From an uncultured Pontibacter sp. (GTDB taxonomy: Bacteria > Bacteroidota > Bacteroidia > Cytophagales > Hymenobacteraceae), in assembly GCF_947499215.1 (NCBI RefSeq), contig NZ_CANMNI010000002.1:744001-808000 (forward strand): a stretch of 64,000 nucleotides of DNA, written 5' to 3'. Shown here one piece after another: positions 1 to 64,000 of this stretch. Position 1 is the stretch's first letter. Each line of letters starts with the position of its first letter. The position numbers and the translations under genes are program-made. The notes beneath the pieces are model-generated. The model saw nothing but the letters and a program-made list of their open reading frames with translations, was not told the origin of the DNA and searched no databases.

Positions 1-1
1 G

Positions 2-208
2 GCTTTCCCACTCCTTCAGAAGGATCTCATTAAGGAAGTGCGCACCATCATCGACCTGCAGCTTGCCGACGATACCAAAGCCCGCGACACCGACAACAAC
101 TATGTAGAGCAAGTAGCCCCAACCCATACCCGCTCACAATACGCCACGTACGAGTACCTGCGCGGCTTGATTCCGGGAGGTATGGAACCGGCAAAGCAAC
201 CGAAATAG
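2..208 (+). CDS. ppk1: Polyphosphate kinase 1, C-terminal fragment (5' end outside window)
   Basis: Frame 2 reads AFPLLQKDLIKEVRTIIDLQLADDTKARDTDNNYVEQ...EPAKQPK*, resembling the PPK1 C-terminus (P-E-L-x-E-x-x-x-I-L-x-I-Q-L-x-D-N-x-K-A-R). Confidence 0.75.
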   Translation, partial: AFPLLQKDLIKEVRTIIDLQLADDTKARDTDNNYVEQVAPTHTRSQYATYEYLRGLIPGGMEPAKQPK

Positions 209-229
209 GCTAACCCTTGCATTACATCA

Positions 230-270
230 AAAAGGCCCGACTCGCTATACCTGCGAGTCGGGCCTTTTTT
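230..270 (+). terminator. Intrinsic terminator after ppk1
   Basis: Perfect 14-bp stem AAGGCCCGACTCGC/GCGAGTCGGGCCTT, loop TATACCT, T-tract. Confidence 0.85.
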
Positions 271-289
271 AATTAGCTATACTTGATCT

Positions 290-1339
290 CTATCTGTTCC
301 GGCTGCGCTCCAGCAGCTTGCGGGGTGGCACGGCATAAAGTTCTATACCTATATAGCCAGCTCCGGCCAAGTTGTTTGTGATGAGCTCGTCGCGTGAGCC
401 TACCACATCGAAGGCGCGGTGGCGGTAGTACTGCCGGAATCCGCCTTCCACGGCAAACCACAGAAAGTCGTAGATCTCCTGCTCAAGCCGCAACAGACCT
501 TTGATGTCGGTGCGGCGCAGTTCGATGTCGTTGAACTGCGAGAGCGGCGGCTCATCGGCAAAGAGGTTGTAGCTGGCGCCTTCTATCCTATACCCGGTGT
601 AGAGCAGCGTTTTCTCAGACACATTGTAGCGCACCCGCAGGTTGGCCGGGAAGATAGACTCCACTCCCCAGCGGTCGTTGAAGGTGCGGTTGTACATAAT
701 GCCCGGATAGATGCGCCGCCGCCCGAAGGTATAACCCAACTGCAAGCCTACCCCCCATGCAAAATCAGGGGTTCTTTTCCAGCCATAGGCAAGGTCCATA
801 GTGGTTTTCAGGTAATCGGATATGTTGATGTTTTTGCGGTTGTAATCGCCGTTCAATTCGCCTTTTACCCGCACCAGCATAAACCGCACATCGTCAAAAG
901 AGTGCAGGAAAGCCAACTGCAGGCCCAGACTCGTCAGGTTTTTGTCCGCTAGGTTGCGGTACAGGCTGTAGGATGCCGGTGTGACGTCCTCGAAGTTAAA
1001 CTCCTCCAGCTTGTGGTCTATACCCAGAATGAGTTTGTTGTTGGGCTTGTTCATTACCGGGGCCAGCGCCCGCACAAAAAACTTATTATGCCGCCGCACA
1101 CGCGCCCGGCCGTTGCCCACCTCCGGATTGTCGGACTCCGACTCCATGTCGAACTGGGGCAGGCGCTCGTAGCCAATCACAATGCCCCGGCTCCTACCCA
1201 TGCCCCGCACGCCCGGACTAGCGTAGTCTATCGTTTGCTTTTGTACATCACTTAGGTCTCTTCCGGTTTCCTGAGCCAATGCTTGCTCTCCGATCAGGAG
1301 TAGAGGAATTAAAAGTAATTTTGGTATGGTCAATTTCAT
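290..1339 (-). CDS. DUF6268-like outer-membrane beta-barrel protein
   Basis: ORF with signal peptide MKLTIPKLLLIPLLLIGEQALAQ and alternating beta-barrel-type strands; ATG at 1339. Confidence 0.65.
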   Translation of the reverse strand: MKLTIPKLLLIPLLLIGEQALAQETGRDLSDVQKQTIDYASPGVRGMGRSRGIVIGYERLPQFDMESESDNPEVGNGRARVRRHNKFFVRALAPVMNKPNNKLILGIDHKLEEFNFEDVTPASYSLYRNLADKNLTSLGLQLAFLHSFDDVRFMLVRVKGELNGDYNRKNINISDYLKTTMDLAYGWKRTPDFAWGVGLQLGYTFGRRRIYPGIMYNRTFNDRWGVESIFPANLRVRYNVSEKTLLYTGYRIEGASYNLFADEPPLSQFNDIELRRTDIKGLLRLEQEIYDFLWFAVEGGFRQYYRHRAFDVVGSRDELITNNLAGAGYIGIELYAVPPRKLLERSRNR

Positions 1340-1371
1340 AGTTTGCAGCAAATTTTAGAGGCGGTAAAAGC

Positions 1372-1400
1372 AAAAAGTGCCACTCCTCGCGGCACTTTTT
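1372..1400. terminator. Bidirectional-type hairpin AAAAGTGCC...GGCACTTTT
   Basis: AAAAAGTGCCactcctcgcGGCACTTTTT. Confidence 0.7.
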
Positions 1401-1421: not shown

Positions 1422-4400
1422 TTAGAATAAAAAGCCGAAACTTAAGTTCCAGAGCCGTTCCACATCGCCTTTGGCATAGGTTAGGACGATCACGTTTTTC
1501 TGCATGATATCGGCCCACACACCGCCACCCACGCCGGTATGCATGTTACGCAGGAAGCCACTGCGATCATCGCCATCGTAGTACACACGGCCCACGTCAT
1601 ATAGGCCCAGCACGCCCAACTTGCCCGGTGTCAGGTATAGGTTGAAGTCGAAGAGCGCCAGACGGGCCTCGGCGTTGGCGAAGATGTAGCTACGGCCGGC
1701 AAAACGGGTACGGCGGTAGCCGCGCATGTTGTCCATGCCACCTAGCGTATTGGCCTGATAGAAGCGGAAATCGCCAAAGTTATGCGCCGCTCCCAGTCGA
1801 CCCGCCCACGTGAGCTGAAACGGGAAGTTAGGGCTGAGGTAGAAAGCGAATTCAGAACTCACATGGGTATAGCTAAGTCCTTCGCCATCGGTTTGTTTGT
1901 TGTAGCTGATGCGGTTGTGCGAGCGCATACCAATGCGTGGGTTTTTCTGATTACCCTCTCCCAGCACATCCAAGTCAGCAAAGGCCCTCACGCCTACATA
2001 GTGCTGTGACTCGAATCGGTTTTCCTCAAAATCGTAGGTACCCGGCTCCATGCGTCCGTTCAGCGCCTCGTTTACCAAAAAGGTCTCGCTGTCGGAGTTC
2101 ACCACCCGGAAGCGGTCGTAGGTAGGCCCTATGCCTATCTTGAAGAAAGGCGCCAAATTGTTGTTGAGCGTTGCGCCCACGTTGACCCGCTTGAAACGCA
2201 CACGGTAGAAGGAGTCATCGAGTCCGTCCTGTTGGCGGGTATCGTTGCCGTATCCGTAGAAATTACGCTGGTACTGCGGGCCCTGTATGGCGGCATTCAC
2301 GCCGATGTTCCAGTTGCCGAACACCTGCCGGATATCGCCGGCATAGCGCACATTAAAGGAGTTGGTGAAGAAGGCGTAATTCCCCTCCAGTATGTGCTCT
2401 GCCGCATAGGGTGAGTTGCGGAACTTGTGTGTGCGGGCAATCACACCGCCTCCCACAAACAGGCCATCATCCACGTTGTATTCAAACGAAAGCCTTGGGC
2501 CCAGATAGGGCAGTTTACGGTTGTCACGGTCGTAAAAGTTCACGTCCGGACTGATGCTGGTGCGGTCTTTTGTTTCAGGCCCGAAGTTGAACACGTTGCC
2601 TTCTTCTGTGTCATACACGACGGTATGCTTCTTGATGCCGGCTACACGCGAATTATCCGTGATGACGTCTTCATCGTTGCCACCGATAATGCGCACCACG
2701 ATACCTTCGTCAACTTCCCCGTTCACTTCGAACATATCTTTGCCACGCTGGCCGTAGAGGCGCAACTCTTTGGTCTCGGAGGTATAGAAGGTGCGTTTGT
2801 AAAGTGTGTCACGTAATTCGCCCTCTTTGTTGATCTTGTATACCGTCAGGTGTGTTTCTTCATCATTGATCCGATTCACGACAAAATGCTCATGTTTATC
2901 GCTGCCGGCCACATCCACCATTGTAGAGATGTGCTCATAATAGGCTTCGGCTGCCTGTGGCAGCTTGTCGCGGCGTGAGCGGAGCTTGGCTTTGATCTCT
3001 TCGCCAGAAATGGCTTGCACTTCTTTTGGCCACTGGTTAATGGCCTCCTCGATGACCTGATCGGTAACACCGGCTTTTATCTCTTCGGCAAGTCGAATCC
3101 ACTCCTGCCGCGTGATGGCTGGCGTGAAAGTGCGGTCGATGGTGAGGGCACTCAGGTTAAGGCCCACAATGTCGCGGAAGTCGTGGTCGAAGTTCTGGAC
3201 GTTGCGTACCCCCCACTTTCGGGTGGCCAGCCAAGGTATAAGGCCGTCCGCTTTGAAGAACACTTGGTCGCGGTCTTCCGGAATTGGTAAGTATACCTTG
3301 CCGCTGTCGGTCTTTTCTTCTTTCCAGCGCCACTGTCCTTCGTGGCGGTCCCAGTCGCCCACCAGCATGTCGAACAGGCGGGCGCGCACAAACTCCTCTT
3401 GGTTTACCTTGTTGTCGTTGTCTTGGCGCAGTTCCTTCAGCACCTTGTCGGTACCTACCAGATTCTCGGCAAAGCCCAGACTCTCTACATCTTCGTGGTT
3501 CTCGTCGGCGTCTTCTTCCAAGAAGGCCAGTGTGTTGCTGAACTCATCCATGTACTGGCGCAAGTAGGGCGTCTGTGGGATGTACACCAGCTTCGGGTTT
3601 GTGTGAAACACTCCAGCACCATCGGCCAGACGCGGTATAGCCAATGCGCCATAAGGGTGCTGGGCTGATATCTGGTCCTGTAACAGGGCCTTGGCGGCGG
3701 TTTGGCGTAAGTACTCTGGCAGAGCCATGGTCGGATCCTTGTCGACAGTGCGCAGGGTATACTCGCGGGCGTCCGGGTTGCGCACTTTCAGAGAGGCTGT
3801 TTGTTTGCCACCGCCTTTTTGGTAGGGCGTGAGGCCACCCATTTCATTGCGCATATCCAACAGGGGCACCTCTACGGGTGTGGACCACTCGCGGCGGTAG
3901 TGCTCCCCCAGCAAGGAGCGACGAAGCCCCTTAGCGGTGTATTCGTCGTTTGCCGCCACCACGATGGTGCTGTCGGCATAGTTGGTATCATCCACCACAG
4001 CCTCTCTTTTGCGGCGCGGTTCTTTGGCGTAAAGCGGCGTCCGGAATGTCATGGTGCCTTCGGAGCCATCTCCTTCCGGCGTCCAGTACTCTACCCAAGC
4101 CTCACCGTTTTCATAGTACATCAACTTGGCAAAGCCTTTTACTTCGTGGGTGTACATGGCCGCTCCGCCCGGCTTTACGTGCTGCGTCTTACAGCCCGAC
4201 CCGCTCACGATGTGGGCTAAGTTGTTGTGCTTGTAGTGTTGCAGGGAGTGCTCGTGCCCGGCGGCATACACGATGTTGTCATACTTATCGAAGACGTTGA
4301 GCAGACCCTCGACGTAAGCGGTGTAACGCGGATGCGGAATGTCTTGCAGGATACCGCCGTATTTGCGGGCGAAGGGGTAGATAGAGCCGATGACCGGCAG

Positions 4401-9376: not shown

Positions 9377-10498
9377 ATGAAAAGCTATATATGCGGCATC
9401 GGCACGGCTAACCCGCCAAACAAAATCCCGCAGATGCAGGTGGCCGACTTTATGGCCGCCGCGCTGCAGATGGATGCACAGGACAGCCGCAAACTCAAGG
9501 CCCTTTACCGCGTGTCAGGTATAGGGCAGCGCTACAGCGTGCTCGAAGACTTCACCCGACAGAACGGCGACTATACCTTCTTCCCCAACACCCTCGACCT
9601 CGAGCCCTTCCCTACAGTGCAACAGCGCATGGACGTATACCGCAAGCATGCCCTCGACTTGTCGGAACAGGCCGTGCGCAACTGTCTGGAAAACCTGAGT
9701 GAAGTAACGCTGCGGGACCTCACGCATCTAATCACGGTGAGCTGTACCGGTATGTATGCGCCGGGCCTCGACATTGAGCTGGTAGAGCGACTCGAGTTGA
9801 ACTCCTGTGTGCAGCGTACGGCTGTCAATTTCATGGGATGCTACGCGGCTTTCAACGCCATCAAACTGGCCGACGCCATCTGCAAAGCCGACCCGAGCGC
9901 AAGGGTGATGCTGGTGTGCACCGAGATCTGCACCATCCACTTCCAGAAGAATCCGGAGCAAGACCACTTGGTGTCGAATGCGCTATTTGGCGACGGCGCG
10001 GCGGCAGTGCTCATGCAGGGCCAGCCTTGTCCGGAGGTGAGCCTCGAACTGCAGTCTTTCCACTGCGATCTGGCTCCGGCTGGTAAGCGCGAAATGGCAT
10101 GGCACATCGGTGACACGGGCTTTGAGATGACGCTTTCCTCCTACGTGCCTGACCTTATCAAAAACGGCATCAAACAACTAACCGAGCGTTTGCTGCAAGG
10201 GCTTCGGACCACGGTTTCGGAGATCAAACTGTTCGCCATACACCCCGGCGGGCGCCGCATACTCGAGGTGATAGAACAGGAGCTGGGTATGACGCGCGAC
10301 GACAATCGTTTCGCCTACAAGGTGCTGCACGAGTTTGGCAACATGTCGTCCGCCACGGTGCTCTTTGTGCTCAAAGACCTGATGGCGAGCCTGACCACAC
10401 AGGAAAAAAACGAGCCAGTGCTGAGCTTCGCTTTCGGCCCGGGCCTGACACTGGAATCGATGCTACTGAAAGTGCACTATGCTGAAGCGAAGGTCTAA
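9377..10498 (+). CDS. Type III polyketide synthase (chalcone/stilbene synthase family)
   Basis: ICGIGTANPPNKIPQ; GCYAAFNAIKLADAI; NALFGDGAAAVLM; FAIHPGGRRILEVIE; FGNMSSATVLFVL; SFAFGPGLTLESMLL. Confidence 0.88.
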   Translation: MKSYICGIGTANPPNKIPQMQVADFMAAALQMDAQDSRKLKALYRVSGIGQRYSVLEDFTRQNGDYTFFPNTLDLEPFPTVQQRMDVYRKHALDLSEQAVRNCLENLSEVTLRDLTHLITVSCTGMYAPGLDIELVERLELNSCVQRTAVNFMGCYAAFNAIKLADAICKADPSARVMLVCTEICTIHFQKNPEQDHLVSNALFGDGAAAVLMQGQPCPEVSLELQSFHCDLAPAGKREMAWHIGDTGFEMTLSSYVPDLIKNGIKQLTERLLQGLRTTVSEIKLFAIHPGGRRILEVIEQELGMTRDDNRFAYKVLHEFGNMSSATVLFVLKDLMASLTTQEKNEPVLSFAFGPGLTLESMLLKVHYAEAKV

Positions 10499-11180
10499 CC
10501 AGCCCGAACTGATGGATGACCTCAGTTTGTCGGGGGATGAGCTGCGGCGCAACCTCGAAGAGCTCGAAGTAATCAACACATGGCTGGGCGGGTATAAGGT
10601 GGTACTCGACGCACTAGAAAAACTCTTGGCTGGGTATACAGGTCCGCCCCTGCACATTGCCGACATTGGCTGCGGAGGCGGCGACACACTGCGGCACATT
10701 GCCAAGTGGGCCCGCCGCAAAAACATTCAACTGCAACTCACAGGTATAGACGCCAACGATTTCATGGTACAGTACGCTAGGCAGCGCTGCGGCGGATTTC
10801 CTGAGATCAAGCTGAAGCAACATGATGTGTTCTCGGAGCGATTTCAGCAAGAGCAATACGACATTGTGGTTTGCAGCCTGTTCTGCCACCACTTCACCGA
10901 CGAACAGCTCGTGAGCATGTTTCGGCAGTTGCACCGGCAGGCAGGTATGGCCGTCATCATCAACGACCTGCACCGCCACTGGCTGGCCTATCATTCTATC
11001 AAACTGCTCACCCGCTTTTTCTCTGATTCCTACCTTGTTAAAAACGATGCGCCGCTTTCCGTCTGGCGGGCTTTCCGAAGAGAGGAATTACAACGGTTGG
11101 TGCAAGAGGCGGGTATAGACAGGTATAGCCTGCGCTGGATGTGGGCTTTTAGGTGGCAGCTCCTTTTGAAAAAAGCCTAA
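10479..11180 (+). CDS. SAM-dependent methyltransferase of the type III PKS cluster
   Basis: IADIGCGGGDTLRHIAKWA motif I; overlaps the T3PKS stop by 20 nt. Confidence 0.82.
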   Translation: MLKRRSNQPELMDDLSLSGDELRRNLEELEVINTWLGGYKVVLDALEKLLAGYTGPPLHIADIGCGGGDTLRHIAKWARRKNIQLQLTGIDANDFMVQYARQRCGGFPEIKLKQHDVFSERFQQEQYDIVVCSLFCHHFTDEQLVSMFRQLHRQAGMAVIINDLHRHWLAYHSIKLLTRFFSDSYLVKNDAPLSVWRAFRREELQRLVQEAGIDRYSLRWMWAFRWQLLLKKA

Positions 11181-11264
11181 CAATTAGTATCTTAACAGGG
11201 TATGATTAGTTATGGCTGGCTTTTGGCAGGTATAGCCAAAAGCCCTGAACATAAACCCGATGAC

Positions 11265-14685: not shown

Positions 14686-15231
14686 ATGAGAAAATACCTT
14701 TGCCTGTTACCTCTATTGCTGCTTTGCCTCTCGGCCAGTGCGCAGGGCAGCGGCACGGAAACGTTTAACTTACGACAGGCAGAGACGCTTAAGTTTGGCA
14801 TGCTGGCGCTCGGTGCATGGGCGCTAATCAATATCCTGATCAGTAGCATCAAACTCACCAAGTCGTCGCGAAACAAGCGTTACTTTTTCCAGATGAACAT
14901 CTACTGGAACATTGTAAACATGATCATATCGGGCGGTTCGCTTTACTTCCTTCTTTCGACAGACCCCACAGCCCGCACACTGGCCGAGAGCATCGATTTC
15001 CATTACTGGTACCTCAAACTTTTATACCTGAGCATTGGTCTCGATCTGGCTTTCCTGATGCTGGCGGCCTACCTGAAAGAGTTGTCTTTGAGCTCTCCCA
15101 AAGCCGAACAGTATTTGGGCTGGGGCCAGTCGATTACGCTGCAGGCACTGTTTCTGCTAGTGCTCGACATTACCTTGGTCGTGTTGCTCGAGGGGCCAAG
15201 TGAGGAGCTTCTCAGACTGGTGCAAGGTTAA
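14686..15231 (+). CDS. Hypothetical membrane protein
   Basis: 181 aa with signal peptide and about four TM helices. Confidence 0.6.
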   Translation: MRKYLCLLPLLLLCLSASAQGSGTETFNLRQAETLKFGMLALGAWALINILISSIKLTKSSRNKRYFFQMNIYWNIVNMIISGGSLYFLLSTDPTARTLAESIDFHYWYLKLLYLSIGLDLAFLMLAAYLKELSLSSPKAEQYLGWGQSITLQALFLLVLDITLVVLLEGPSEELLRLVQG

Positions 15232-15241
15232 GGTATAGCCA

Positions 15242-15979: not shown

Positions 15980-16477
15980 ATGACCATATACCTGAGACAA
16001 CTTATCTTACTCTTAGCCCTTGGCTTGCTCACCAGCACGGCGACGCTGGCCCAAGAGGTAAGCACCATCAAATTTGACCAGTTGCAAGAGCTGCGCCAGT
16101 CACCGCACGACACACTGTACGTCGTAAACTTCTGGGCCACGTGGTGCAAGCCCTGCATCAAAGAGATGCCTTATTTCGAGGCCGCTCACGCCCAGTACAA
16201 AGACCAGCCCGTGCGGGTGATTCTCGTGAGCATGGATGCGGTGCAGGACATGGAGAAGCGCGTGATGCCTTTTGTGCAGAAGCGCAACCTGCAGTCGCGG
16301 CTATACCTGCTCGACGAGCCGGACGGCAACACGTGGATAGACCGCATCGAGCCGAAGTGGTCGGGCGCTATACCTGCCACCATGTTCTTTAATAACAAGC
16401 GCGGGCAGTACGAGTTTATAGAGCGCGAAATCTCCGAACAGGAATTACAGGAACTGATCACCAAGTATAAACCATAA
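15980..16477 (+). CDS. TlpA-like thioredoxin-fold protein
   Basis: YVVNFWATWCKPCIKEMPYFEAAHAQY. Confidence 0.9.
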   Translation: MTIYLRQLILLLALGLLTSTATLAQEVSTIKFDQLQELRQSPHDTLYVVNFWATWCKPCIKEMPYFEAAHAQYKDQPVRVILVSMDAVQDMEKRVMPFVQKRNLQSRLYLLDEPDGNTWIDRIEPKWSGAIPATMFFNNKRGQYEFIEREISEQELQELITKYKP

Positions 16478-17125: not shown

Positions 17126-17503
17126 CTAACTTTCTTTTCTGACATCAATAGGTAAGGGCAGCTCGGTCGGTTTGATCGAGCTGTCCGCTTTTTGGGCCAC
17201 AGGTATGTGCATCTCCCCTTTCAGGCCGGCAATACGGGCCTCCACCTCATACTTGTTGTTGTAGTAGCCCACCCGCATCGACTCCCGCAGGTATAGCCAC
17301 AGAAAGCGTACATAGCCGTGCTCCTGAAACTGCCGGATGTGACACAGTTCGTGCGCCACCCAGCCTTTGTCGCGTAGAAAAGACTCTCGTCGCACACCGC
17401 TCAGGTGGATCGTCTTGCCCAGTACCATGGCCACATTGCTGCTCTTGAGCACCATGCGGGCAATGCGGGCGAAAGGCGAATTCTCAACAATCTTATACTC
17501 CAT
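17126..17503 (-). CDS. Small DUF4157-like putative metallopeptidase
   Basis: WVAHELCHIRQFQEHG (HExxH-like HELCH) and downstream E-rich helix. Confidence 0.55.
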   Translation of the reverse strand: MEYKIVENSPFARIARMVLKSSNVAMVLGKTIHLSGVRRESFLRDKGWVAHELCHIRQFQEHGYVRFLWLYLRESMRVGYYNNKYEVEARIAGLKGEMHIPVAQKADSSIKPTELPLPIDVRKES

Positions 17504-18416: not shown

Positions 18417-18597
18417 AACCATACCTTCGAAACATATTTGGAGAACGGGTTGCAGCATATGCGCCCGTTTTTTCGTTTACTATATATAACAAAATTACTT
18501 GCGACAAGGTATAGGAAGGTTGTTCGGAGTTGAGCAACTTGCGCCCGGTTTGGCGGGCACTCTCAGCAAGCCGATACCTAAAGCACATACACACCCT

Positions 18598-36232: not shown

Positions 36233-36248
36233 GGTATAGAGAGGATTC

Positions 36249-39926: not shown

Positions 39927-40157
39927 TTACCATCAATACAGGTATAGCCTAAAGCATTTCCTAAAGTTGTTCGGTCTCACCCCAAAGTGTGGAATACATT
40001 CCCCATTTACAGTTCCCTTTCCACAGGTTGCATAAAACGAAACAATATTGCAACCACCTTATAATCAACAATTTAAAACAAATGTCAGGTTTTGGCACGG
40101 TTATGCCAATAGGGCTTTGCGAAATCAAATAGTTAATCTAAACTAAACTGACATAAC

Positions 40158-41113: not shown

Positions 41114-41156
41114 AGGTATAGCAGGTATAGGTATCAGTGATGATGACAAGATATAA

Positions 41157-42411: not shown

Positions 42412-42478
42412 GGGTTATCTTCGTTAAGCTGTTACTTGTTCTATAATACGGGGCAGGTATAGCTTCTGCCCACTTTGT

Positions 42479-43822
42479 TTACTTTTCTGTTTTGGGCGGC
42501 GGACGGCGCATGATTGGCCGGGGCCGTGGTGGCTTAGGTTTCTCGTTTTGCTCTTCCGGCAAAGTGGATTCGCCAACTGATGGCTTAGCTGTTAAACCTG
42601 CATCTGAAGGAGCTTCCTGATGAGCCTTATTGACCTCCGGTTCCGCTGTCTCTCTCGGCGCTGTTTCCTGCGGAACTGTGAGCGGAGCCGGTCTGCGGAT
42701 AATTGGCCTCGGACGTGGCGGTTTGGCTGGCTGTTCTATACCTGACTCCCCTGCCGGTGCATTCGCTGGCGTTTTTTCTTCCGCGGGCACCTCTCCTGCT
42801 GCTGGTGCTGTCTCAACTCCATCTGATGCAGGTTTTGCCTCTTCCGGTTCAGACGCCGGGGCCGCTGGTTTGGCCAGTGCCGCCGGGCGCTTGATCACAG
42901 GCCTAGGCCGTGGTGGTTTTGATGTGTCTGCCGTTGGCTGCGCCGGGTTTTCCGCGTCAGCAGTAGGCTGTGGCGCATCCGGAGCAGGCGGTTTATCACC
43001 TGCATCAGATGCGCTTGGCTCCTGCGCTGGTTTCTGCAAAGCCGTTGGCCTTTTTATAATCGGTCGAGGGCGCGGAGGCTTTGGCGCTTCTGCAGGAGCC
43101 GCACCGCTCGCTGGTTCTATACCTGTGGTTGGCGCTTCTGCTGGCTTCTCTCCTTCCTGTAGTTTTTCTCCTTCTTGCGACGGCTTTTGCAGCGCTGCGG
43201 GGCGTTTGATGACCGGTCTCGGACGAGCAGGCTTCGGCGCTTCCGCTGATGCTTCATTGGCCGCATCGGACTGCTCAGGTATAGCATTCTCTTCCTGCTG
43301 CCGGGCGGTTGGCTGTTCGTCTGGCTTTGAAAGCGCAGCCGGACGCTTGATCACCGGTCTGGCTCTTGGCGCGGCAGGCTTGCCAGCTTCTTCGGCCGGC
43401 TTCTCTGCAGCAGTCGCTCCCTCTCCTTCCACCGGCGGTTTCAAAGCGGCTGGTCGGCGCACTACCGGTCTTGGTTTAGGTGCTGCAGCAGGCGCAACTG
43501 ACTTTTCCTCAGTTGTTTCCTGTGGAACATCCGTTGCGGTAGGTACAGCAGTCGGTGCCTCTGGTTCAGTTTTAGGTATAGGAGCGGTGGCGCGTCTTGC
43601 GGCTGGTCGCGGGGCGGCCGTGGTAGTCGGCTTTGGCACGTCTTCTTCGCGCAGATGGTATCGCAGTCGCACGTCGTTGAGCATCATTTTCACGGACACA
43701 TAAAAGCTGTTAGGGTGCATTTGGGCATACATGTTTTCCCAAACCCTGTAACGGGCCGGGTCTTCAGCCGCAAAGGCCTCCCTGTTGATTCGCTTTTTTA
43801 CCAGATACTCTTCAAACGTCAT
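42479..43822 (-). CDS. Proline/alanine-rich protein with ~7 tandem PRPxxKRPAAL repeats
   Basis: N-term MTFEEYLVKKRINREAFAAEDPARYRVWENMYAQMHPNSFYVSVKMMLNDVRLRYHL, then repeats KPPRPRPIIKRPTALQKPAQE etc. Confidence 0.8.
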   Translation of the reverse strand: MTFEEYLVKKRINREAFAAEDPARYRVWENMYAQMHPNSFYVSVKMMLNDVRLRYHLREEDVPKPTTTAAPRPAARRATAPIPKTEPEAPTAVPTATDVPQETTEEKSVAPAAAPKPRPVVRRPAALKPPVEGEGATAAEKPAEEAGKPAAPRARPVIKRPAALSKPDEQPTARQQEENAIPEQSDAANEASAEAPKPARPRPVIKRPAALQKPSQEGEKLQEGEKPAEAPTTGIEPASGAAPAEAPKPPRPRPIIKRPTALQKPAQEPSASDAGDKPPAPDAPQPTADAENPAQPTADTSKPPRPRPVIKRPAALAKPAAPASEPEEAKPASDGVETAPAAGEVPAEEKTPANAPAGESGIEQPAKPPRPRPIIRRPAPLTVPQETAPRETAEPEVNKAHQEAPSDAGLTAKPSVGESTLPEEQNEKPKPPRPRPIMRRPPPKTEK

Positions 43823-44023
43823 ATAGCGCTGACCGTGTCCTATACCTGCAAAGGTACGGAAACGAGCCTGAATCATTTTCCATATCAGCCTGATCAACCT
43901 ATGTCGCATACCTGCAACGGCTATCGGCATGACAAATATAAGAAAATCGGACTCCTGAAACAGGTACGCATTATTTCTATTTTACCATTGCATTACTTAA
44001 TCATTAAATCTGCTCACGCCTAT

Positions 44024-45344: not shown

Positions 45345-45478
45345 CTTTCTGTAATTTGGCTTCCGGATAGCCTAATGTAACTATATCTCCTAACCTATGT
45401 TTTGCACAAAACGTCTATACCTTACAAGCACCTTGTCGCATACCTGCCAAAGGCTTGCGGATCTCAAAACTATGAAAC

Positions 45479-45817: not shown

Positions 45818-45893
45818 GTCCACTGACTAAGCAGGAGGTACAAGCAGACCGCAAAAGCCGTAATTTGCGACAAAATATATAAGGCTATACCTC

Positions 45894-49580: not shown

Positions 49581-50009
49581 TTAGGCTTTAGTTTCAATCC
49601 GGGCCTTTACTTCGTCGGGCAATGCCATTAATTTTCGCTCTTGGTAGTTGAAGCACAACATACCGGTCTTGGCACGGGCCACTTCCTTGCCATCTTGGTT
49701 GAGCACGTGATAGGTAATGTCAAAGCCATACTTGTGTATATCGTCAAAAGCGAGCTTCAGTGTGAGCACGTCGCCATAGAAGCCTTCGCCCTTGTACTCG
49801 ATTGCCACATCGGCCATGATGAGACTGGCTCCGCCTAAGTCCAGCTCGGTATAGCCGAAGTGGCGCAGCAGCTGCAGGCGGGCTTCGTGCAAAATAGAGA
49901 GCAAGGCATCATTACCGAGGTGGGCACCGTAATTAAGATCCGTGATGCGGACAGGTATGGCCGCCTCAAAAGAGACGTGCGCAGGTATAGCTACTTTTAT
50001 TCGGGGCAT
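49581..50009 (-). CDS. Acyl-CoA thioesterase (4HBT hotdog)
   Basis: RITDLNYGAHLGNDALLSILHEARLQLLRHFGYTELDLGGASLIMADVAIEYKGEGFYGDVL. Confidence 0.88.
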   Translation of the reverse strand: MPRIKVAIPAHVSFEAAIPVRITDLNYGAHLGNDALLSILHEARLQLLRHFGYTELDLGGASLIMADVAIEYKGEGFYGDVLTLKLAFDDIHKYGFDITYHVLNQDGKEVARAKTGMLCFNYQERKLMALPDEVKARIETKA

Positions 50010-52316: not shown

Positions 52317-53402
52317 ATGAAAGACGCAGCGAAAATAACGCTTCAGGCACTCGGCACCTTTGCCGTGCTGGCCACCGCTCTGCCACTACTAGACGCGCCA
52401 CAATGGTATGTGCGGGTGTTTGACTATCCGCGCATGCAGTTACTTGTGCTTGCCCTGCTCGTATTCGTACTATACCTATGGCTGGGCACCCGTCACCGTA
52501 AGCGAGACAAGTTGTTGCTGGTTTCGCTGGCAGCAGCCATTGTTTACCAAACCTTTCAGATCTACCCCTATACCCGACCGGCGGCTAACCAAGTGAAGCG
52601 CGCGGATGTAGACGCGCCAACTGACTCCAGACTAAGTATACTGGTGGCCAATGTGCTGATGGAAAATGAAAGCTATGGCGAACTGATTCGACTTACACAG
52701 GAAAAAGAGCCGGATATACTCTTGTTGCTTGAGTCAGATTCGGCTTGGCAACTCGGCATGCAGCCAGCCACACAGGAATATCCATACCGGGTGGAAGTGC
52801 CGCTAAGCAACACCTATGGCATGCACCTCTATAGCAAGCTGCCGTTGCGCCAGCAAAAGGTGAGCTACTTGCTGGACGACGACATTCCCTCCATCAAGAC
52901 TTTTGTGCAGTTGCGCAACGGTATGTGGGTGGAGCTGCATAACGTGCATCCCAAGCCCCCTGTACCCACCGAAGACCCGAACTCAAGAAAACGTGACGCC
53001 GAGATTGTGCTGGTTGCCCGTGATATTGAAAGCTCCCAGTACCCGGTAGTAGTGGCAGGTGACTTTAATGACGTGGCTTGGTCACGCACTACCAAGCTGT
53101 TCCAAGAAGTAAGCGGCCTGCTTGATCCCCGGATTGGACGTGGATTTTATAACACGTTCAATGCGAAATACCCAGTACTGCGCTGGCCCTTGGACCATAT
53201 TTTTCACTCAGACCACTTTAAACTGGTACGTATCGAGCGGTTGCGCAATATTGACTCCGATCACTTCCCAATCTACATTGAGTTAAGCTTTGCTCCGGAG
53301 AATGAGTATGAGCAGGAGGAACCAAAGGCCGACGATACGACACAGGAGGAAGCAACCGAGACAATTCAGGAAGGCAAGCAGGAAGCTATCGAAGAGAAAT
53401 GA
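52317..53402 (+). CDS. Membrane-anchored endonuclease/exonuclease/phosphatase family protein
   Basis: N-term TM helices; LSILVANVLMENESYGELIRLTQEKEPDILLLLESD...VVVAGDFNDVAWS...PLDHIFHSDHF...IDSDHFPIYIEL. Confidence 0.93.
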   Translation: MKDAAKITLQALGTFAVLATALPLLDAPQWYVRVFDYPRMQLLVLALLVFVLYLWLGTRHRKRDKLLLVSLAAAIVYQTFQIYPYTRPAANQVKRADVDAPTDSRLSILVANVLMENESYGELIRLTQEKEPDILLLLESDSAWQLGMQPATQEYPYRVEVPLSNTYGMHLYSKLPLRQQKVSYLLDDDIPSIKTFVQLRNGMWVELHNVHPKPPVPTEDPNSRKRDAEIVLVARDIESSQYPVVVAGDFNDVAWSRTTKLFQEVSGLLDPRIGRGFYNTFNAKYPVLRWPLDHIFHSDHFKLVRIERLRNIDSDHFPIYIELSFAPENEYEQEEPKADDTTQEEATETIQEGKQEAIEEK

Positions 53403-53975: not shown

Positions 53976-55552
53976 TACTCCTCCTCCAGTATCGTGAACT
54001 TGAACTCCAGCGGATCAAAAGCCTCCACCAGCGCAGGTATAAAGTTCGGGTGATTGGTCTGATACGAGAGTAGGTTATCCTGACGCTCCTGCAGACTGCC
54101 GTTCGGGAAGAGCTTGTCTTTCAGGTTCTCGAGCTGTTTGAAGGTTTGCTCGTGTTTGCTGTCGCGGGCTTTGGAGAGTTTCTTCTCGAGCATTTGCAGC
54201 GAGTTACAAGCTTTTTGCTGTTCGGCCGCCACAGCCCGCATCAGTGTCGGGTCTATACCTTCGGCAAGCTCCTCTACCTGTTTAAATGCCTTGGCCACGG
54301 CATCGCGCTGGGTCTCTAGGTTTATTTCGGCATCGTGCAGCTGCGACGAGAGTTGCTTTTTGAGCTCTTGGTAATCCTGAAACAAGTCAAGCGGCTGCAG
54401 GCCTAGCTTGTGCATGCGGCTGGCGTTAGGCTTGCTGATGTAAAGCGCCGAATTGCGCAGCATGATGATCGGGAACGTAACTTGATAAGCTTCGAATACT
54501 TTGCGCAGCTGGAACCAGTATGCCACCTCGGCACCGCCGCCAATGTAGGCTAGGTTTGGCAACACCATCTCTTCAAAAAGCGGACGCAGAATCACGTTCG
54601 GGCTGAAGCGCTCCGGGTGCTGCTGAAGTTCTTGCAGCATTTCCTGTTCTGTAAAGCTGATGTCCGTGTTGAGCACTTTATAGGTATCATCGGCCTGCAC
54701 AATTCGCCCCCTTATGCCCTCCTGCAAATAAAACAGGTTGATCTCGCGCGAAAACACCTGCGGCTTATACCCCAGTTGCTCCAATTCTGCGTTGGCCTCT
54801 TCCACCAGTTTATTCGACAACTGCTCGGCAAGCTCTTTCTCCACCACAGGTATAAGCGCCTTCTTGAGTTCTTTGTGGTCGCCATCGATGCTCACCAAGC
54901 CATACTCCCCAAACAGCGCATGCGTGATGGCACGCGTCGCGTCGGCCAGTGTTTTGCTGTTACGGTAAGCCTCTTCAAAAATCGGGAAAGCCTCCGGCAG
55001 TTCTTCCAGCACCTTGTCAAGTCCGGCTGTTGAGAAGCGGCCCACGGCCCCAGTTTGCTCCGACTCCCAAGCATAGCGCTTGCCAAATAGATTGAAATGG
55101 TTGATCTCCGCGAAATCGTGATCTTCGGTGGCCATCCAGTACACGGGCACAAAATTGTAATCCGGGTAAGCTGCCTGCAACTGCCGGCAGGTGTTAATGG
55201 CCGTTACAATCTTATACACAAAGTATAGCGGACCTGTGAAGATATTGAGCTGGTGCCCTGTAGTTACGGTATAGGTGTTGGGCTGCCGCAACAGTTCCAG
55301 ACTTTGCTGCACTGCGGGATGCACATCGGCTACGGAGCCATATTGCTCCCGCAAAGCCTGATACAAGGTGTGGCGCTGGGCTTCCGTGAATTGCTTCTCT
55401 TTGATTTGTTCGCCAAAAGCCTCCAGCGTCGGGAAGCGGTGATAGAAAGTCTGCAGCTTTTCGCTTTGGGACAAGTAATCGGCTATTGTTTGGGAGAAAG
55501 CGCCCGTGTCGGCATACGCTACCTTCGTTATTTTCATATCAGTTACTTCCAT
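53975..55552 (-). CDS. bshC: Bacillithiol biosynthesis cysteine-adding enzyme BshC
   Basis: PAVQQSLELLRQPNTYTVTTGHQLNIFTGPLYFVYKIVTAINTCRQLQAAYPDYNFVPVYWMATEDHDFAEINHFNLFGKRYAWE. Confidence 0.96.
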   Translation of the reverse strand: MEVTDMKITKVAYADTGAFSQTIADYLSQSEKLQTFYHRFPTLEAFGEQIKEKQFTEAQRHTLYQALREQYGSVADVHPAVQQSLELLRQPNTYTVTTGHQLNIFTGPLYFVYKIVTAINTCRQLQAAYPDYNFVPVYWMATEDHDFAEINHFNLFGKRYAWESEQTGAVGRFSTAGLDKVLEELPEAFPIFEEAYRNSKTLADATRAITHALFGEYGLVSIDGDHKELKKALIPVVEKELAEQLSNKLVEEANAELEQLGYKPQVFSREINLFYLQEGIRGRIVQADDTYKVLNTDISFTEQEMLQELQQHPERFSPNVILRPLFEEMVLPNLAYIGGGAEVAYWFQLRKVFEAYQVTFPIIMLRNSALYISKPNASRMHKLGLQPLDLFQDYQELKKQLSSQLHDAEINLETQRDAVAKAFKQVEELAEGIDPTLMRAVAAEQQKACNSLQMLEKKLSKARDSKHEQTFKQLENLKDKLFPNGSLQERQDNLLSYQTNHPNFIPALVEAFDPLEFKFTILEEE

Positions 55553-55796
55553 CTGCTATTCTTTGTGGCCTGCGCTGTGCGGCTATACCTGCACGGTATA
55601 ACCACGCACCTGCGCCAATGTTGCGTCACAAAGTACGTGTTTTTTATTTTCGATATATAGCTGATACGATAGAAAGCCGATATAAGGGGACGGAATCAAA
55701 TTTTTAGATCGCATACCCTTGCGCTTTCATAGCCATGCGATGATCTTTGCGTATAAGCACTTGGGCAAATAGCTGCTTATTCGCCGTTATCAATCT

Positions 55797-56428: not shown

Positions 56429-56456
56429 GCCCCACAGGCTATACCTGTAGGGCTTT
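56429..56456. terminator. Convergent terminator with CTATACCTG forming loop and 3' stem
   Basis: AAAGCCCCACAGGctataCCTGTAGGGCTTT. Confidence 0.8.
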
Positions 56457-56478: not shown

Positions 56479-57792
56479 TTAGAGAACTACTTCTCCGTAC
56501 AGGTCGAAGTCTGAAGCGTCGGTGATTTTCACGTTGGCAAAGTCGCCTAGGCGCACGTACTGACTGTCGGCTGGCACGAGTACCTCGTTGTCTACCTCAG
56601 GGGAGTCGTACTGGGTACGGCCCACGAAGTAGCCGCTCTCTTTGCGGTCGAACAGCACTTTGTTGGTCTTGCCCACTTTCTCTTCGTTCAGTTCTACCGA
56701 TATACCTTGCTGCAACTCCATAATGGCATCGGCACGCTCCTGCTTCACCTCGTCCGGCACATTGTCCTCTAAAGTATGGGAATGCGTGTTTTCTTCGTGC
56801 GAGTAAGTGAAAATACCCAAACGCTCAAAGCGGGTTTCTTCTACCCAATCGTATAGCTCTTGAAAATCCTGATCGGTTTCACCTGGGTGGCCGGCGATAA
56901 GCGTGGTACGCAAAGCGATGTCTGGCACACGCTGACGAATCTGGTCCACCAACTCGATGGTGCGGCGCTTGCTGATGCCACGGCGCATGGTCTTGAGCAT
57001 GTTGTCCGATACGTGTTGCAGTGGCATATCCAAGTACTTGCAAATGTTCTCGCGCTCGTTCATCACGTCAAACACCTCCATTGGGAACTGCGAGGGGTAA
57101 GCGTACTGCATGCGGATCCAGTCTATACCTTCCACATCCGACAGGTTACGAAGCAAATCCGCCAGCTTGCGCTCGCCGTAGTGCTGCAAGCCATAGTAGG
57201 TCAGGTCCTGTGCAATCAGGATCAGTTCTTTCGTACCCATGCTAGCCAGTCGCTTAGCTTCGCGCACCAGATCCTCAATCGGACGGTCCACGTGCTTGCC
57301 GCGCATCAAAGGGATGGCACAGAAAGAGCAAGGCCGGTTGCAACCCTCGGCTATTTTGAAGTAAGCGTAATGCGAAGGCGTCGTGATGAGTCGTTCACCG
57401 ATGAGTTCGTGCTTGTAGTCAGCCTCCAGCTTTTTAAGAAGCTGCGGCATCTCCAGCGTACCAAAATAGGCGTCCACTTGCGGAATCTCTGCTTCCAGAG
57501 AGTCTTTGTAGCGTTGCGACAGACAGCCCGTTACGTATAGCTTGTCGATCTGCCCTGCTTCCTTGGCTTCGGCGTAACGCAGTATAGTGTCGATGGACTC
57601 CTGCTTGGCATTGTCGATAAAGCCGCAGGTGTTCACGATGATAATATTTGAATCGTCTTTTTCAGACTCGTGCGCCACGTCAAACTCGTTGGCACGCAAC
57701 TGCCCCATCAGCACTTCCGAATCCACTAGGTTTTTAGAACAACCCAGTGTGATGACGTTTACCTTGTCTTTCTTTAAACTTCTTACTTTCAC
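56479..57792 (-). CDS. rimO: Ribosomal protein S12 methylthiotransferase RimO (GTG start)
   Basis: KVNVITLGCSKNLVDSEVLMGQLRANEFDVAHE...KIAEGCNRPCSFCAIPLMRGKHVDRPIEDLVREAKRLASMGTKELILIAQDLTYYG. Confidence 0.97.
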   Translation of the reverse strand: MKVRSLKKDKVNVITLGCSKNLVDSEVLMGQLRANEFDVAHESEKDDSNIIIVNTCGFIDNAKQESIDTILRYAEAKEAGQIDKLYVTGCLSQRYKDSLEAEIPQVDAYFGTLEMPQLLKKLEADYKHELIGERLITTPSHYAYFKIAEGCNRPCSFCAIPLMRGKHVDRPIEDLVREAKRLASMGTKELILIAQDLTYYGLQHYGERKLADLLRNLSDVEGIDWIRMQYAYPSQFPMEVFDVMNERENICKYLDMPLQHVSDNMLKTMRRGISKRRTIELVDQIRQRVPDIALRTTLIAGHPGETDQDFQELYDWVEETRFERLGIFTYSHEENTHSHTLEDNVPDEVKQERADAIMELQQGISVELNEEKVGKTNKVLFDRKESGYFVGRTQYDSPEVDNEVLVPADSQYVRLGDFANVKITDASDFDLYGEVVL

Positions 57793-58555: not shown

Positions 58556-59071
58556 TTAGTAAAATGCGTTATAGTTAACCAAAAACTCTACGGTAGTTAC
58601 TTCGTCCTCTTGCACCTCCACCGGAAAGATGTTCATGTCTCCGTCGAAAAGGTTGGCAAACAGTCCGTCTTCCTCTTTTGTGAAGAGGCTATACCTGCCG
58701 GGCTCCAGTCGAACAGCAAAATTGCCGTTAGCGTCTGTCTTTACTTGTGTAATCAGCTTGGTCTGAATCGCGGTATGGAAAACACCGTCTTTGGATGTGG
58801 TTTGTGAACTGTTAGTCAGTTCGTAAATGTATACCGTGCGCTCCACGCCACGACGGCCGCTGCTAGTTGGGGCGTCCGGGGATGGCATTTGGTTGCCAGC
58901 TTCCCAGAGTATTTGCCCCTTTATACCTTGTTTTATCTGCATCTGCTGGCCTGTTTGCGTTTTCAACTCCTGCTGCGTTTCTTGCGCTTCGCCCTCCTGT
59001 CCTGACGTACCTTGAGTACCATTACAAACAGTCAGCAACAGCGACATCCCTATCAACAGCAATTTCCCCAT
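58556..59071 (-). CDS. Secreted/lipoprotein with carboxypeptidase-regulatory-like domain
   Basis: LLLTVCNG lipobox-like; QGIKGQILWEAGNQMPSPD...TDANGNFAVRLEPGRYSLFTKEEDGLFANLFDGDMNIFPVEVQEDEVTTVEFLVNYNAFY. Confidence 0.7.
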   Translation of the reverse strand: MGKLLLIGMSLLLTVCNGTQGTSGQEGEAQETQQELKTQTGQQMQIKQGIKGQILWEAGNQMPSPDAPTSSGRRGVERTVYIYELTNSSQTTSKDGVFHTAIQTKLITQVKTDANGNFAVRLEPGRYSLFTKEEDGLFANLFDGDMNIFPVEVQEDEVTTVEFLVNYNAFY

Positions 59072-60640: not shown

Positions 60641-62257
60641 TTAATCCAGCCTTGGAAGCTTAAAACCATCCAACGCGCTGGGCTGGGCCATTGTTTTCTC
60701 TATTTCCTCTACTGTGCGCGGTGCCTGTTTCGACAGGTTTTCCCATCCCTTTTCGGTAATCAGAATGTCGTCTTCTATACGCACACCAATACCCCACCAC
60801 TTCTTGTCGCAAGGACTGCCCTCGGGTATGTAAATGCCCGGCTCTACCGTGATTACCGTGTTCGCTTGGAAAGGTCCGAAGCTGCCACGATCGTGCACAT
60901 CGAGTCCCAGATAATGGGAAGTGCCGTGCGGGAAATAGCGCTGTGCCTCTGCTCTGTTCTTAATGACTCCTAGCTTCACCAATCCTTCGGCTATGACTTC
61001 CTGCGCGGCTTGGTGCGGTGCCCCAAAAGCGTTCCCCACCTTGCATTGCTGAAAACCAGCTTCCTGCGCCATTAGCACCAGTTCGTAAATGGCCTTTTGT
61101 TCTTTCGTGAACTTGCCGTTGGCAGGTATGGTGCGGGTCACGTCGGCGGTATAGCCCAAATACTCGGCACCCACATCCATCAGCACCAGTTCCTGACCCG
61201 GAATGGCTGGTTTGGCGCTGGAAATATAATGCAGCACACAGCCATTGTTGCCGGCCCCTACTATGCTCGGGTAGCCCACGTGCTGGGCGCCGTACTTCTT
61301 GAAAACAAACTCGTGTATACCCTGCACTTCCATCTCAGACATGCCCGGCTTCATGGCTTTCATCACCTCGATTTGCCCGATAGCCGACATGCTCACGGCT
61401 TTTCTCAGAAGCTTGATCTCCTCCTCGGTTTTTACTTCCCGCAGTTGGTCCAACACTTGGTCTAGCGAGAAAGCGTCAAGCTTTTGCTTAGGTATAGCAG
61501 CCACGGCTTTGGTGCGGGCACGCATGTCTTTGGCCTGCAGATAGCCCTGCAAGGCCTTGTCGCTTTGCAAAGCAGGCTCCCGTTGTGTGGCTTCCTGTAT
61601 ATAGGCAGCCACCCCTTCGGCCTGCGCCAAGCCATGCTCTCGCACAATGCCATACAGCATGCTGCGGGTAGCGCTGAAGTTCGCAGGGTAATTTACCTTC
61701 GTTCTGAACTGCCCAAGCAAACTGTACAGGTCGGCTTCGTCAGCGGCATCATCGCGCACATCGTGCGGCAATTCCCTAATCAGGATGTGCTGCAGGTTGG
61801 CAGTATCGAGTTTGAAGCCAGCGAAGTCAGTATTGGCGAGCGTGGCTATACCCAGCTCTTTTGCAGCGCCATCCACTCCCAGTCGCTTGCCGTTCCAGAG
61901 TTCTTCCATCTCGTCGCCGGGTTGCACGAAGAGCACTTCCTGCACCTGCTTGCCGTTCACGTTCTGCGGGCTCTGAAAAAGCAAAAGCACCGCGTTCGGC
62001 TCTTTATACCCCGTGAGGTAGTACAGGTCCGGATCGGGATGGTAGTAAAAGTCTACGTCGTTGGCGCGGTTGCGCACGGGACTGGCAAAAAGAACGGCAA
62101 CGGAGCGAGGGGGCAGCTGTTGCCGCAACACCTCTCTCCGTTGCCGGTGAAACTCTTTATCTAAAGTATCAGATGGCTTTCCCGAGCCTGCGTGCGGTTG
62201 CGCTGCTGCCGTAAACGACAGCCAGACTAACAGTGCACACAGCCGGAAGGCTGCCAT
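60641..62257 (-). CDS. Secreted Xaa-Pro aminopeptidase (aminopeptidase P family)
   Basis: Signal peptide; VLMDVGAEYLGYTADVTRTIPANGKFT...FPHGTSHYLGLDVHD...TVEPGIYIPE...GVRIEDDILITEKG. Confidence 0.95.
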   Translation of the reverse strand: MAAFRLCALLVWLSFTAAAQPHAGSGKPSDTLDKEFHRQRREVLRQQLPPRSVAVLFASPVRNRANDVDFYYHPDPDLYYLTGYKEPNAVLLLFQSPQNVNGKQVQEVLFVQPGDEMEELWNGKRLGVDGAAKELGIATLANTDFAGFKLDTANLQHILIRELPHDVRDDAADEADLYSLLGQFRTKVNYPANFSATRSMLYGIVREHGLAQAEGVAAYIQEATQREPALQSDKALQGYLQAKDMRARTKAVAAIPKQKLDAFSLDQVLDQLREVKTEEEIKLLRKAVSMSAIGQIEVMKAMKPGMSEMEVQGIHEFVFKKYGAQHVGYPSIVGAGNNGCVLHYISSAKPAIPGQELVLMDVGAEYLGYTADVTRTIPANGKFTKEQKAIYELVLMAQEAGFQQCKVGNAFGAPHQAAQEVIAEGLVKLGVIKNRAEAQRYFPHGTSHYLGLDVHDRGSFGPFQANTVITVEPGIYIPEGSPCDKKWWGIGVRIEDDILITEKGWENLSKQAPRTVEEIEKTMAQPSALDGFKLPRLD

Positions 62258-62496
62258 TAGTACATAATGTAGCCCTGCTCAACAGCCTTCTTCAGTACTG
62301 CAGAGATGCCGTTCTTGTTGATTGTTCTCAATGCTGAAGTTGATACTTTAAGGGTTACCCAAGCATCTTCCTCAGGGATGTAGAAACGTTTCTTCTGAAG
62401 GTTCGGATAGAACTTACGCTTTGTCTTATTGTTAGCGTGAGAAACGTTATTTCCTACTTGTACTCTCTTTCCGGTTAAATCGCAAACTCGTGCCAT
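62257..62496 (-). CDS. rpmB: 50S ribosomal protein L28
   Basis: [64 protein letters not shown]. Confidence 0.97.
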
Positions 62497-62629
62497 CTTG
62501 TATTTTCTTCTAAATTATTTCAATAGGGGTGCAAATATCTACAAAAAGATACAGAATGTCAAAGGCATAGCAGATAATTTTAACAAAACATGCTCTAATA
62601 TAGCTGCTAAGGCCCTTTAAACAGGTTGT

Positions 62630-62803
62630 TTATACTTTACCCGTGTTCTTCGCCTCGTCCTCTTTCTTCTTTTTTGTAAAGCCATAGGGGCAGTTTCGGC
62701 AGGCATTCTTGCAACAATACCCGCGCTTGAGCAAGTACTTTGCCGTTAGCACCATCAGGCCGCGCTCAAAGTAAAAATCCTCTCCTTCCTTCAGATCACT
62801 CAC
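62630..62803 (-). CDS. DUF5522-like Cys-rich small protein, GTG start (below the ORF-track cutoff)
   Basis: (M/V)SDLKEGEDFYFERGLMVLTAKYLLKRGYCCKNACRNCPYGFTKKKKEDEAKNTGKV*. Confidence 0.8.
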   Translation of the reverse strand: MSDLKEGEDFYFERGLMVLTAKYLLKRGYCCKNACRNCPYGFTKKKKEDEAKNTGKV

Positions 62804-62947
62804 TACTATACTCCTTTTCGAATGCCAAATATCGGCAATTTAAAGCCGTTCACCAAAAATTCACCTTCACCCTCCTCCCTTGCGCATGCCATACGTTAAA
62901 CAATTTGATGCCCCTTATTGCGATTTCACAACCTATAATCATAAGCC

Positions 62948-63262
62948 ATGTCCCGTTTCAACAACTTAAGCGAGGCCGTCAACGTGTTGCGTTCCCGCGG
63001 TTTTGTGAATACCTTTAGCATACAGCACCAGCGGGTATACTGCTCCGAACTAAGCAAGTCCATCTCCCCTGCCCAGCTCACTCTGCTCGAGCGCTATGTC
63101 GTGCCCTCCCCTGCCGTACAGAGCGGCGAAGAAGAGGTATACGGTTTTCGGACAGATGACAACCAATTGGGTATCATGACCAACATCTATGCTGAGTACG
63201 ACCCGGAAGGCTTTTTCTCTGTGTTCAGACAATGCCTGAAAGGCGGAGCCGGGCACGACTAG
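62948..63262 (+). CDS. Conserved hypothetical protein
   Basis: 104-aa ORF MSRFNNLSEAVNVLRSRGFVNTFSIQHQRVYC... Confidence 0.6.
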   Translation: MSRFNNLSEAVNVLRSRGFVNTFSIQHQRVYCSELSKSISPAQLTLLERYVVPSPAVQSGEEEVYGFRTDDNQLGIMTNIYAEYDPEGFFSVFRQCLKGGAGHD

Positions 63263-63407
63263 CCTCGATCTCCTACAAAACTATAATTCAGGCTGTTTTT
63301 GCTATATTTACAACCAATCATCAGAATCCCGGTAAATATAGGTCCGGAGCCGCAGCCTGTGGCGCAGCTCTGCCCTTTTCCGGACAACAGCTTTAAATCT
63401 ATAAACT

Positions 63408-64000
63408 ATGAGCACGCTATCCATCACCTCCAGCCAACAGGCTATCGAAACAGAAGACAAGTACGGTGCCCACAACTACCACCCGCTGCCGGTGGTGCTG
63501 AACAAAGGCGAAGGCGTACACCTCTGGGACGTAGAAGGTAAACGCTACTATGACTTCCTGTCGGCCTACAGCGCCGTGAACCAAGGCCACTGCCACCCAC
63601 ACATTATCAACGCCCTGATCGAGCAGGCGCAGCAGCTCACGCTTACTTCCCGCGCCTTCTACAACGACAAGCTAGGTATAGCCGAGAAGTACATTTGCGA
63701 GTTGTTTGGCTACGACAAATCGCTTTACATGAACTCCGGTGCCGAGGCCGTGGAGACCGCCATCAAACTGGCCCGCAAGTGGGGTTATCTGAAAAAAGGA
63801 ATTGCCTCGCACAACGCCGAGATCATTGTGGTGGAACGCAATTTCCATGGCCGCACCACGGGCATCATCTCCTTCTCCACCGACCCGGATTCCACCAAAG
63901 GCTTCGGACCGTATATGCCGGGCTTCAAAGTGATACCTTATGATGATCTCGAGGCGCTGGAAACGGCCCTGAAAGAAAACCCGAACGTGTGCGGTTTCCT
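63408..64000 (+). CDS. rocD: Ornithine--oxo-acid transaminase (3' end outside window)
   Basis: [109 protein letters not shown]. Confidence 0.95.

Follow-up and report, generated by a model that had tools for sequence, protein, structure and literature searches.

A genus-restricted, dialect-forming DNA word in Pontibacter as a proposed uptake-sequence-like self tag

The stretch of DNA analysed here (the window, 64,000 bases at 744001-808000 of contig C2 in a 4.31 Mb genome that named relatives assign to Pontibacter, Hymenobacteraceae, Bacteroidota) contains a short word, CAGGTATAG, in an unusually large number of copies. The original prediction, made from the letters of this window, had counted 25 copies of this 9-mer, about 24 further copies of the 8-mer AGGTATAG, and more than 100 occurrences of the core GGTATA. 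An exact recount gave 25 copies of the 9-mer (15 on the plus strand and 10 on the minus strand), 49 copies of the 8-mer (29 and 20), 24 of which lie beyond the 9-mer set, and 146 occurrences of GGTATA; GCAGGTATAGCC occurred 8 times. Most of the predicted coordinates were exact, and a few were off by 1-10 bases and have been corrected in Table 1 (39949 to 39939, 43118 to 43117, 18510 to 18507, 61482 to 61490, 2779 to 2780, and 39178 to 39179). The copies were found, as predicted, on both strands, in coding and intergenic DNA and in all reading frames. The enrichment extends through the same genome, where the best form of the word, CAGGTATAGC, occurs 559 times (275/284 on the two strands) versus 4 times for the reversed-word control. 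Literature searches found no earlier report of the word.

To separate the word from the proteins it lies in, synonymous codons were shuffled among like residues, which keeps both the proteins and the codon usage. In the coding DNA of the window, AGGTATAG was observed 36 times versus 1.6 +- 1.8 in the shuffles, and in the coding DNA of a further 400 kb elsewhere in this genome 181 times versus 11.7 +- 2.7, an excess of about 15-fold. The coding DNA of P. roseus had 291 copies versus 13.4, and that of P. mucosus, in which the corresponding word is AAGTATAA, had 328 versus 22, so that the enrichment over the codon shuffle was about 15- to 22-fold in the own genome and the two other species. AGGTATAG was also the most over-represented 8-mer in the own-genome 400 kb under an order-4 Markov model (238 versus 51), although that model itself contains most of the motif, and in each of the three 400 kb samples no 8-mer ranked above the motif. 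The prediction of a signal in the DNA itself, as opposed to a protein motif or a promoter, is supported: the word survives the codon shuffle, is strand-symmetric and uses all frames. An origin as a repetitive extragenic palindrome (REP) or insertion-type repeat was rejected, because the flanks are unconserved and orthologues differ by substitution. Taken together, the results excluded chance, codon bias, a protein motif, a promoter and an insertion repeat as the source of the word. Neither of the two outcomes that the original prediction had named as refuting it, a similar count under a codon-preserving shuffle and a lack of enrichment elsewhere in the genome, was seen.

A survey of 50 Pontibacter genomes showed that the word exists in two dialects. 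Dialect I (AGGTATAG) was found in 12 of the 50 genomes, which carry 559-1,472 copies of CAGGTATAGC versus 19-134 in the others. Most other genomes have dialect II (AAGTATAA): about 23 carry roughly 670-3,430 copies of AAAGTATAA, some further genomes carry 240-434, and about six are near background for both words. The copy-number contrast between the dialects is roughly 10- to 45-fold. A ComEC tree, which recovered 11 of the 12 dialect-I genomes, placed all 11 in one clade, suggesting that dialect I probably arose once. Outside Pontibacter, in the family and the order, the word was at or near background. A third dialect, AAAGTATRGC, was sought in the low-copy Pontibacter genomes and was not found. 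Rufibacter-type genomes (group g6; loci L010, L011, L012, L014 and L015) have up to about 690 copies of AAAACAGGCC, many of which, in L010 and L012, lie inside a REP-like palindrome of roughly 40 bp with GGAAAACAGGCC...AAAACG; AAAACAGGCC was therefore rejected as a related dialect, being part of an unrelated palindromic repeat.

The dialect-I consensus is A/G-GGTATA-V. The GGTATA core is preceded by A (G is tolerated) and followed by G, A or C, hardly ever by T, with weak outer preferences for C before and for C or another non-T base after. Conservation ends beyond about 11 bp. The word of P. mucosus has A, G or C after AAGTATA, or else reads AAGTATGG; both dialects share GTAT at the centre. 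P. mucosus loci L102-L121 also contain another over-represented word, AGGAGGGG/CCCCTCCT (65 versus 17 expected).

Alignment of orthologues showed that copies arise via point substitution and not via insertion. To follow the fate of the copies, retention was measured at orthologous positions in the comEC region and compared with composition-matched 8-mers. Within-dialect retention was 0.558 versus 0.294 for dialect I, and 0.581 versus 0.224 for dialect II. Across dialects, retention fell below background (0.077 and 0/381 versus about 0.145, or 14-15%). The within-dialect excess and the cross-dialect deficit show that the maintenance of sites is dialect-specific, which requires a trans-acting factor that differs between the clades. 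Furthermore, 16.5% of the dialect-II orthologues of dialect-I sites hold the dialect-II word, versus 0.19% elsewhere. Because the cross-dialect loss is accompanied by this coincidence of sites, the pattern is the signature of a trans-acting recogniser that shifted its preference and retuned existing sites. The word is dialect-forming, restricted to the genus, actively maintained and strand-symmetric.

The copies are spread nearly at random (P. mucosus has a dispersion of 1.46, and two other species 0.84), and the longest word-free gap in the own-genome 400 kb matches random expectation. Mobile DNA is different. With relaxase-gene loci as a proxy for mobile elements and the 20 kb around comEC as the reference, we found 1 copy in 28.8 kb (0.03/kb) of dialect-I relaxase loci and 7 copies in 43.7 kb (0.16/kb) of dialect-II relaxase loci, versus 2.6-2.7 copies/kb around comEC. 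The own-dialect word is roughly 20- to 90-fold rarer in the relaxase loci, and part of this deficit is compositional, as these loci also have about two- to four-fold fewer copies of the other dialect's word than the comEC loci do. The word is thus a mark of the resident chromosome, one that mobile DNA does not share. A motif-free contig, C6, was considered as a plasmid and rejected: its spurious open reading frames match those on a contig of another genome, as is typical of ribosomal RNA operons, and it therefore provides no test of foreign DNA. The comEC gene itself has about 4.4-5 copies/kb, versus a gene mean of 1.2-1.7, and the other top-density genes resemble ordinary variable genes; the high comEC density is consistent with a role in uptake and is not taken as proof. 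A cytochrome oxidase/alternative complex III operon (L155, G000:C5:20001-40000) has 15 copies per 20 kb, about half the usual density, as expected if strongly constrained genes gather fewer copies.

The ComEC, DprA and HHH_3 families are each present in 50 of the 50 Pontibacter genomes and intact in nearly all; the HHH_3 proteins include, in every genome, one of roughly 315-330 amino acids with tandem helix-hairpin-helix (HHH) motifs. In one complete, single-contig genome (G021), in-frame stops were found in ComEC (C1:2771217), DprA (C1:4158575) and the tandem-HHH gene (C1:2078296), while the DUF5689 and relaxase genes stay open; stops in all three genes suggest that a putative competence pathway was lost as a unit. 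This genome has an intermediate AAAGTATAA count of 930. In a dialect-I genome with a motif count among the highest (G009), the ComEC (C76:160505) and DprA (C13:17460) frames are interrupted, by either recent loss or assembly error.

Based on these results, we propose, with a probability of roughly 0.55, that the word is a self tag which works like a DNA uptake sequence (DUS). Dispersed and double-stranded, it would be preferred by a surface or envelope DNA-binding part of the competence machinery, so that word-bearing fragments would be imported and recombined more often, and copies born by point mutation would thereby spread and be kept through the population. A change of the recogniser in one lineage would then lead to the retuning of sites one by one, yielding the dialects AGGTATAG and AAGTATAA with their shared GTAT core. 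We infer that the factor acting in trans belongs to a DNA import system as its uptake receptor and that Pontibacter species are naturally competent; by analogy, the receptor may be an outer-membrane system independent of the type IV pilus (T4P), of the kind proposed for Riemerella. The wider claim that this two-dialect, DUS-like system of the Bacteroidota, with a receptor other than a type IV pilin, is a third, independent origin of sequence-specific uptake has in our judgement an even chance of being correct. Of the properties that define a DUS, the word shows over-representation beyond codon usage and composition, strand symmetry with occurrence in genes and intergenic DNA in no fixed frame, clade-congruent dialects with a shared core, depletion in recently acquired DNA, and the presence of competence genes; a type IV (pseudo)pilus that could recognise it was not found. 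Because a pilus-type receptor is missing and uptake is a proposal, we describe the word as working like a DUS, yet do not file it among the known DUS or uptake signal sequence (USS) systems.

Several observations weigh against this proposal. The known Neisseria DUS receptor is a type IV pilin, and a PilB/PilT/GspE-type ATPase was found in 0 of the 50 genomes, where matches to PF00437 were weak P-loop matches only. The T4P/type II secretion system ATPase is thus absent from the genomes surveyed, and the reader therefore cannot be a ComP-like pilin. The six genomes with neither word retain intact ComEC, DprA and HHH genes, so that a genome cannot be predicted to have the motif from having these genes. 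DUF5689, a domain of Riemerella surface proteins, is found in 22 of the 50 genomes with no correlation with motif or dialect, and in the own genome its gene adjoins a SusD-like gene; DUF5689 was rejected as a receptor candidate on both counts. The word is also less tightly fixed than a typical DUS, with 2- to 7-fold enrichment of several forms that differ at one base and 22-fold enrichment of one such form, AAGTATAG, in P. mucosus. Finally, literature searches gave no paper on Pontibacter competence, uptake or transformation.

The main rival, which we consider unlikely though still a serious contender, is that the word is a chromosomal binding site without any role in import, either for a nucleoid-associated or organising protein or, as a word like the cyanobacterial HIP1, for an orphan methyltransferase. 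The near-Poisson spread, the strand symmetry, the dialect-specific maintenance by a trans-acting factor and the absence from young mobile DNA are all compatible with it. On the other hand, known nucleoid proteins bind degenerate sites, not sites enriched 15- to 45-fold in coding DNA, and some congeners have dropped the word entirely, so its role is not essential. HIP1 is a precedent, as it is a dispersed word of about 8 bp, dense across a clade, low in some members and linked to methyltransferases (PMC4390886). However, HIP1 is a palindrome, GCGATCGC, tied to orphan methyltransferases, whereas AGGTATAG and AAGTATAA are asymmetric and form two dialects.

The original prediction had also offered a Chi-like signal, which would regulate the RecBCD/AddAB nuclease in double-strand-break repair, and among its candidate roles the uptake sequence fits best. 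The word has in common with Chi its short length, its lack of a palindrome, its high copy number, its restriction to a clade and its scarcity in mobile DNA. Chi acts in a single polarity and in known cases is biased to the leading strand. The leading-strand share of the 8-mer was 0.540, 0.571 and 0.589, where base skew by itself would give 0.55-0.56, 0.55-0.57 and 0.55-0.58; there is thus no strand polarity beyond base skew. The enrichment over the codon null also exceeds what would be expected for Chi, and we strongly disfavour this explanation. Marginally less credible is a mutational artefact, in which biased repair or mutation would turn near-words into the word without selection. Such a process would yield strand-symmetric, frame-independent copies by substitution. 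However, precursors that differ from the word at one base are mostly at or above expectation, with no general depletion, which argues against a conversion process; retention across lineages is doubled, and the word is almost missing from mobile DNA of the same cells, though slow conversion could explain part of this.

Very improbable, too, is a self-mark for methylation or defence, in which a modification enzyme acting on the word would shield self DNA from a paired nuclease: the word is clade-specific and its non-palindromic core of 6-7 bp resembles type III or BREX-type targets, but a host genome usually avoids the targets of restriction or is neutral towards them, and does not enrich them 15- to 45-fold. 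Least credible of all is a role in transcription, as a dispersed promoter element, regulator site or terminator loop: although the three 400 kb samples have a higher density in intergenic than in coding DNA and three window copies (245, 11227 and 56439) sit in terminator-like hairpins, most copies lie inside genes on either strand, intergenic density is lower in divergent (promoter-type) than in convergent DNA in all three species, in line with the prediction of a non-promoter word, and the terminator-loop element was rejected because outside the window a stem of 7 bp or more occurs at 0-3% of sites.

Two proteobacterial families are the established cases of sequence-specific DNA uptake, with the involvement of pilus machinery, and the Pasteurellaceae use a T4P-like pseudopilus, unlike Pontibacter. 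Their USS resembles the Pontibacter word in being a genome-wide word of about 9 bp with clade-specific types (PMC1626085), and is unrelated to it in sequence. In the Neisseriaceae, the DUS dialects follow the core-genome phylogeny (PMC3630211). The Neisseriaceae DUS and the Pontibacter word are both short and non-palindromic, with hundreds to thousands of copies on both strands of coding and intergenic DNA, and both form clade-congruent dialects a few substitutions apart around a short core (CTG in DUS and GTAT in Pontibacter) (PMC3630211). Pontibacter differs in belonging to another phylum, in having no ComP-type receptor, in its less strict word, and in that its uptake specificity is putative. 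Inverted word pairs that act as terminators, as in Neisseria and Haemophilus, are likewise not evident, as close inverted pairs showed no clear excess over direct pairs in Pontibacter. Within the Bacteroidota, a screen in R. anatipestifer found ComEC, DprA, ComF, an HHH protein and uncharacterised envelope proteins to be essential for transformation (PMC8459023), and this T4P-independent system shares ComEC, DprA and the HHH protein with Pontibacter, in which no counterparts of its surface proteins were identified. A preference for self DNA is seen in R. columbina, for which there is no known uptake word, and published k-mer counts for Riemerella give only A/T-rich simple words with no comparable signal (PMC7965970).

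The individual copies in the window are listed in Table 1. Two genes near the start of the window were also seen. A 431-residue protein (5550-6845, plus strand) combines an HD domain with a PycTM (Pycsar effector) transmembrane domain, and a nucleotide-signalling or defence role is possible. A 1269-residue protein (1422-5231, minus strand) has an N-terminal calcineurin-like phosphoesterase domain, followed by about 1000 residues without a Pfam match.

Table 1. Copies of the word in the window, with what was seen at single sites.
Word	Position	Strand	Remark
CAGGTATAG	245..253	-	in loop of 17-bp terminator-like hairpin
AGGTATAG	343..350	-	
CAGGTATAG	1632..1640	+	
AGGTATAG	2780..2787	+	
CAGGTATAG	9516..9524	+	
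AGGTATAG	9571..9578	-	
CAGGTATAG	10741..10749	+	in open reading frame; reading ...QLTGIDANDF... passes through unbroken
CAGGTATAG	11120..11128	+	
CAGGTATAG	11227..11235	+	hairpin loop, 10-bp stem
AGGTATAG	15231..15238	+	
CAGGTATAG	16301..16309	-	
CAGGTATAG	16368..16376	-	
CAGGTATAG	17288..17296	+	
AGGTATAG	18507..18514	+	
CAGGTATAG	24403..24411	+	
AGGTATAG	27906..27913	+	
CAGGTATAG	28018..28026	+	
CAGGTATAG	28470..28478	+	
AGGTATAG	29380..29387	+	
AGGTATAG	29809..29816	+	
AGGTATAG	30308..30315	+	
AGGTATAG	33026..33033	-	
CAGGTATAG	34781..34789	-	
CAGGTATAG	35159..35167	+	
AGGTATAG	35654..35661	+	
AGGTATAG	36232..36239	+	
AGGTATAG	36665..36672	+	
AGGTATAG	39179..39186	-	
CAGGTATAG	39939..39947	+	
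AGGTATAG	40573..40580	-	
AGGTATAG tandem pair	41114..41130	+	at 41114 and 41123; second is also CAGGTATAG from 41122
CAGGTATAG	42454..42462	+	
CAGGTATAG	42736..42744	-	
CAGGTATAG	43117..43125	-	
CAGGTATAG	43276..43284	+	
AGGTATAG	43574..43581	+	
CAGGTATAG	43840..43848	-	
AGGTATAG	45415..45422	-	
AGGTATAG	45885..45892	-	
CAGGTATAG	49982..49990	+	one point substitution in core in 2/3 dialect-I relatives compared
AGGTATAG	52470..52477	-	
AGGTATAG	54253..54260	-	dialect-II species P. mucosus and P. chinhatensis have AAGTATAG at homologous position
CAGGTATAG	55583..55591	-	
CAGGTATAG	56439..56447	-	in terminator-like hairpin
AGGTATAG	57123..57130	-	in rimO; made by point substitution, as most relatives have GGCATTG or similar
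CAGGTATAG	58689..58697	-	in 4/4 dialect-I genomes compared; AGGTACAG in three dialect-II genomes
AGGTATAG	61490..61497	+	in 4/4 dialect-I genomes compared
AGGTATAG	63674..63681	+	

A word at about 1-8 copies per kb marks most of one genus. If the word is indeed an uptake-sequence-like self tag, uptake specificity would have evolved again in the Bacteroidota with another receptor and without a pilus ATPase, and the dialect switch would offer a computational handle to find that receptor and to predict DNA-exchange partners. Even without a role in uptake, a dialect-switching word without a known reader is an unexplained genome-wide feature of these bacteria.

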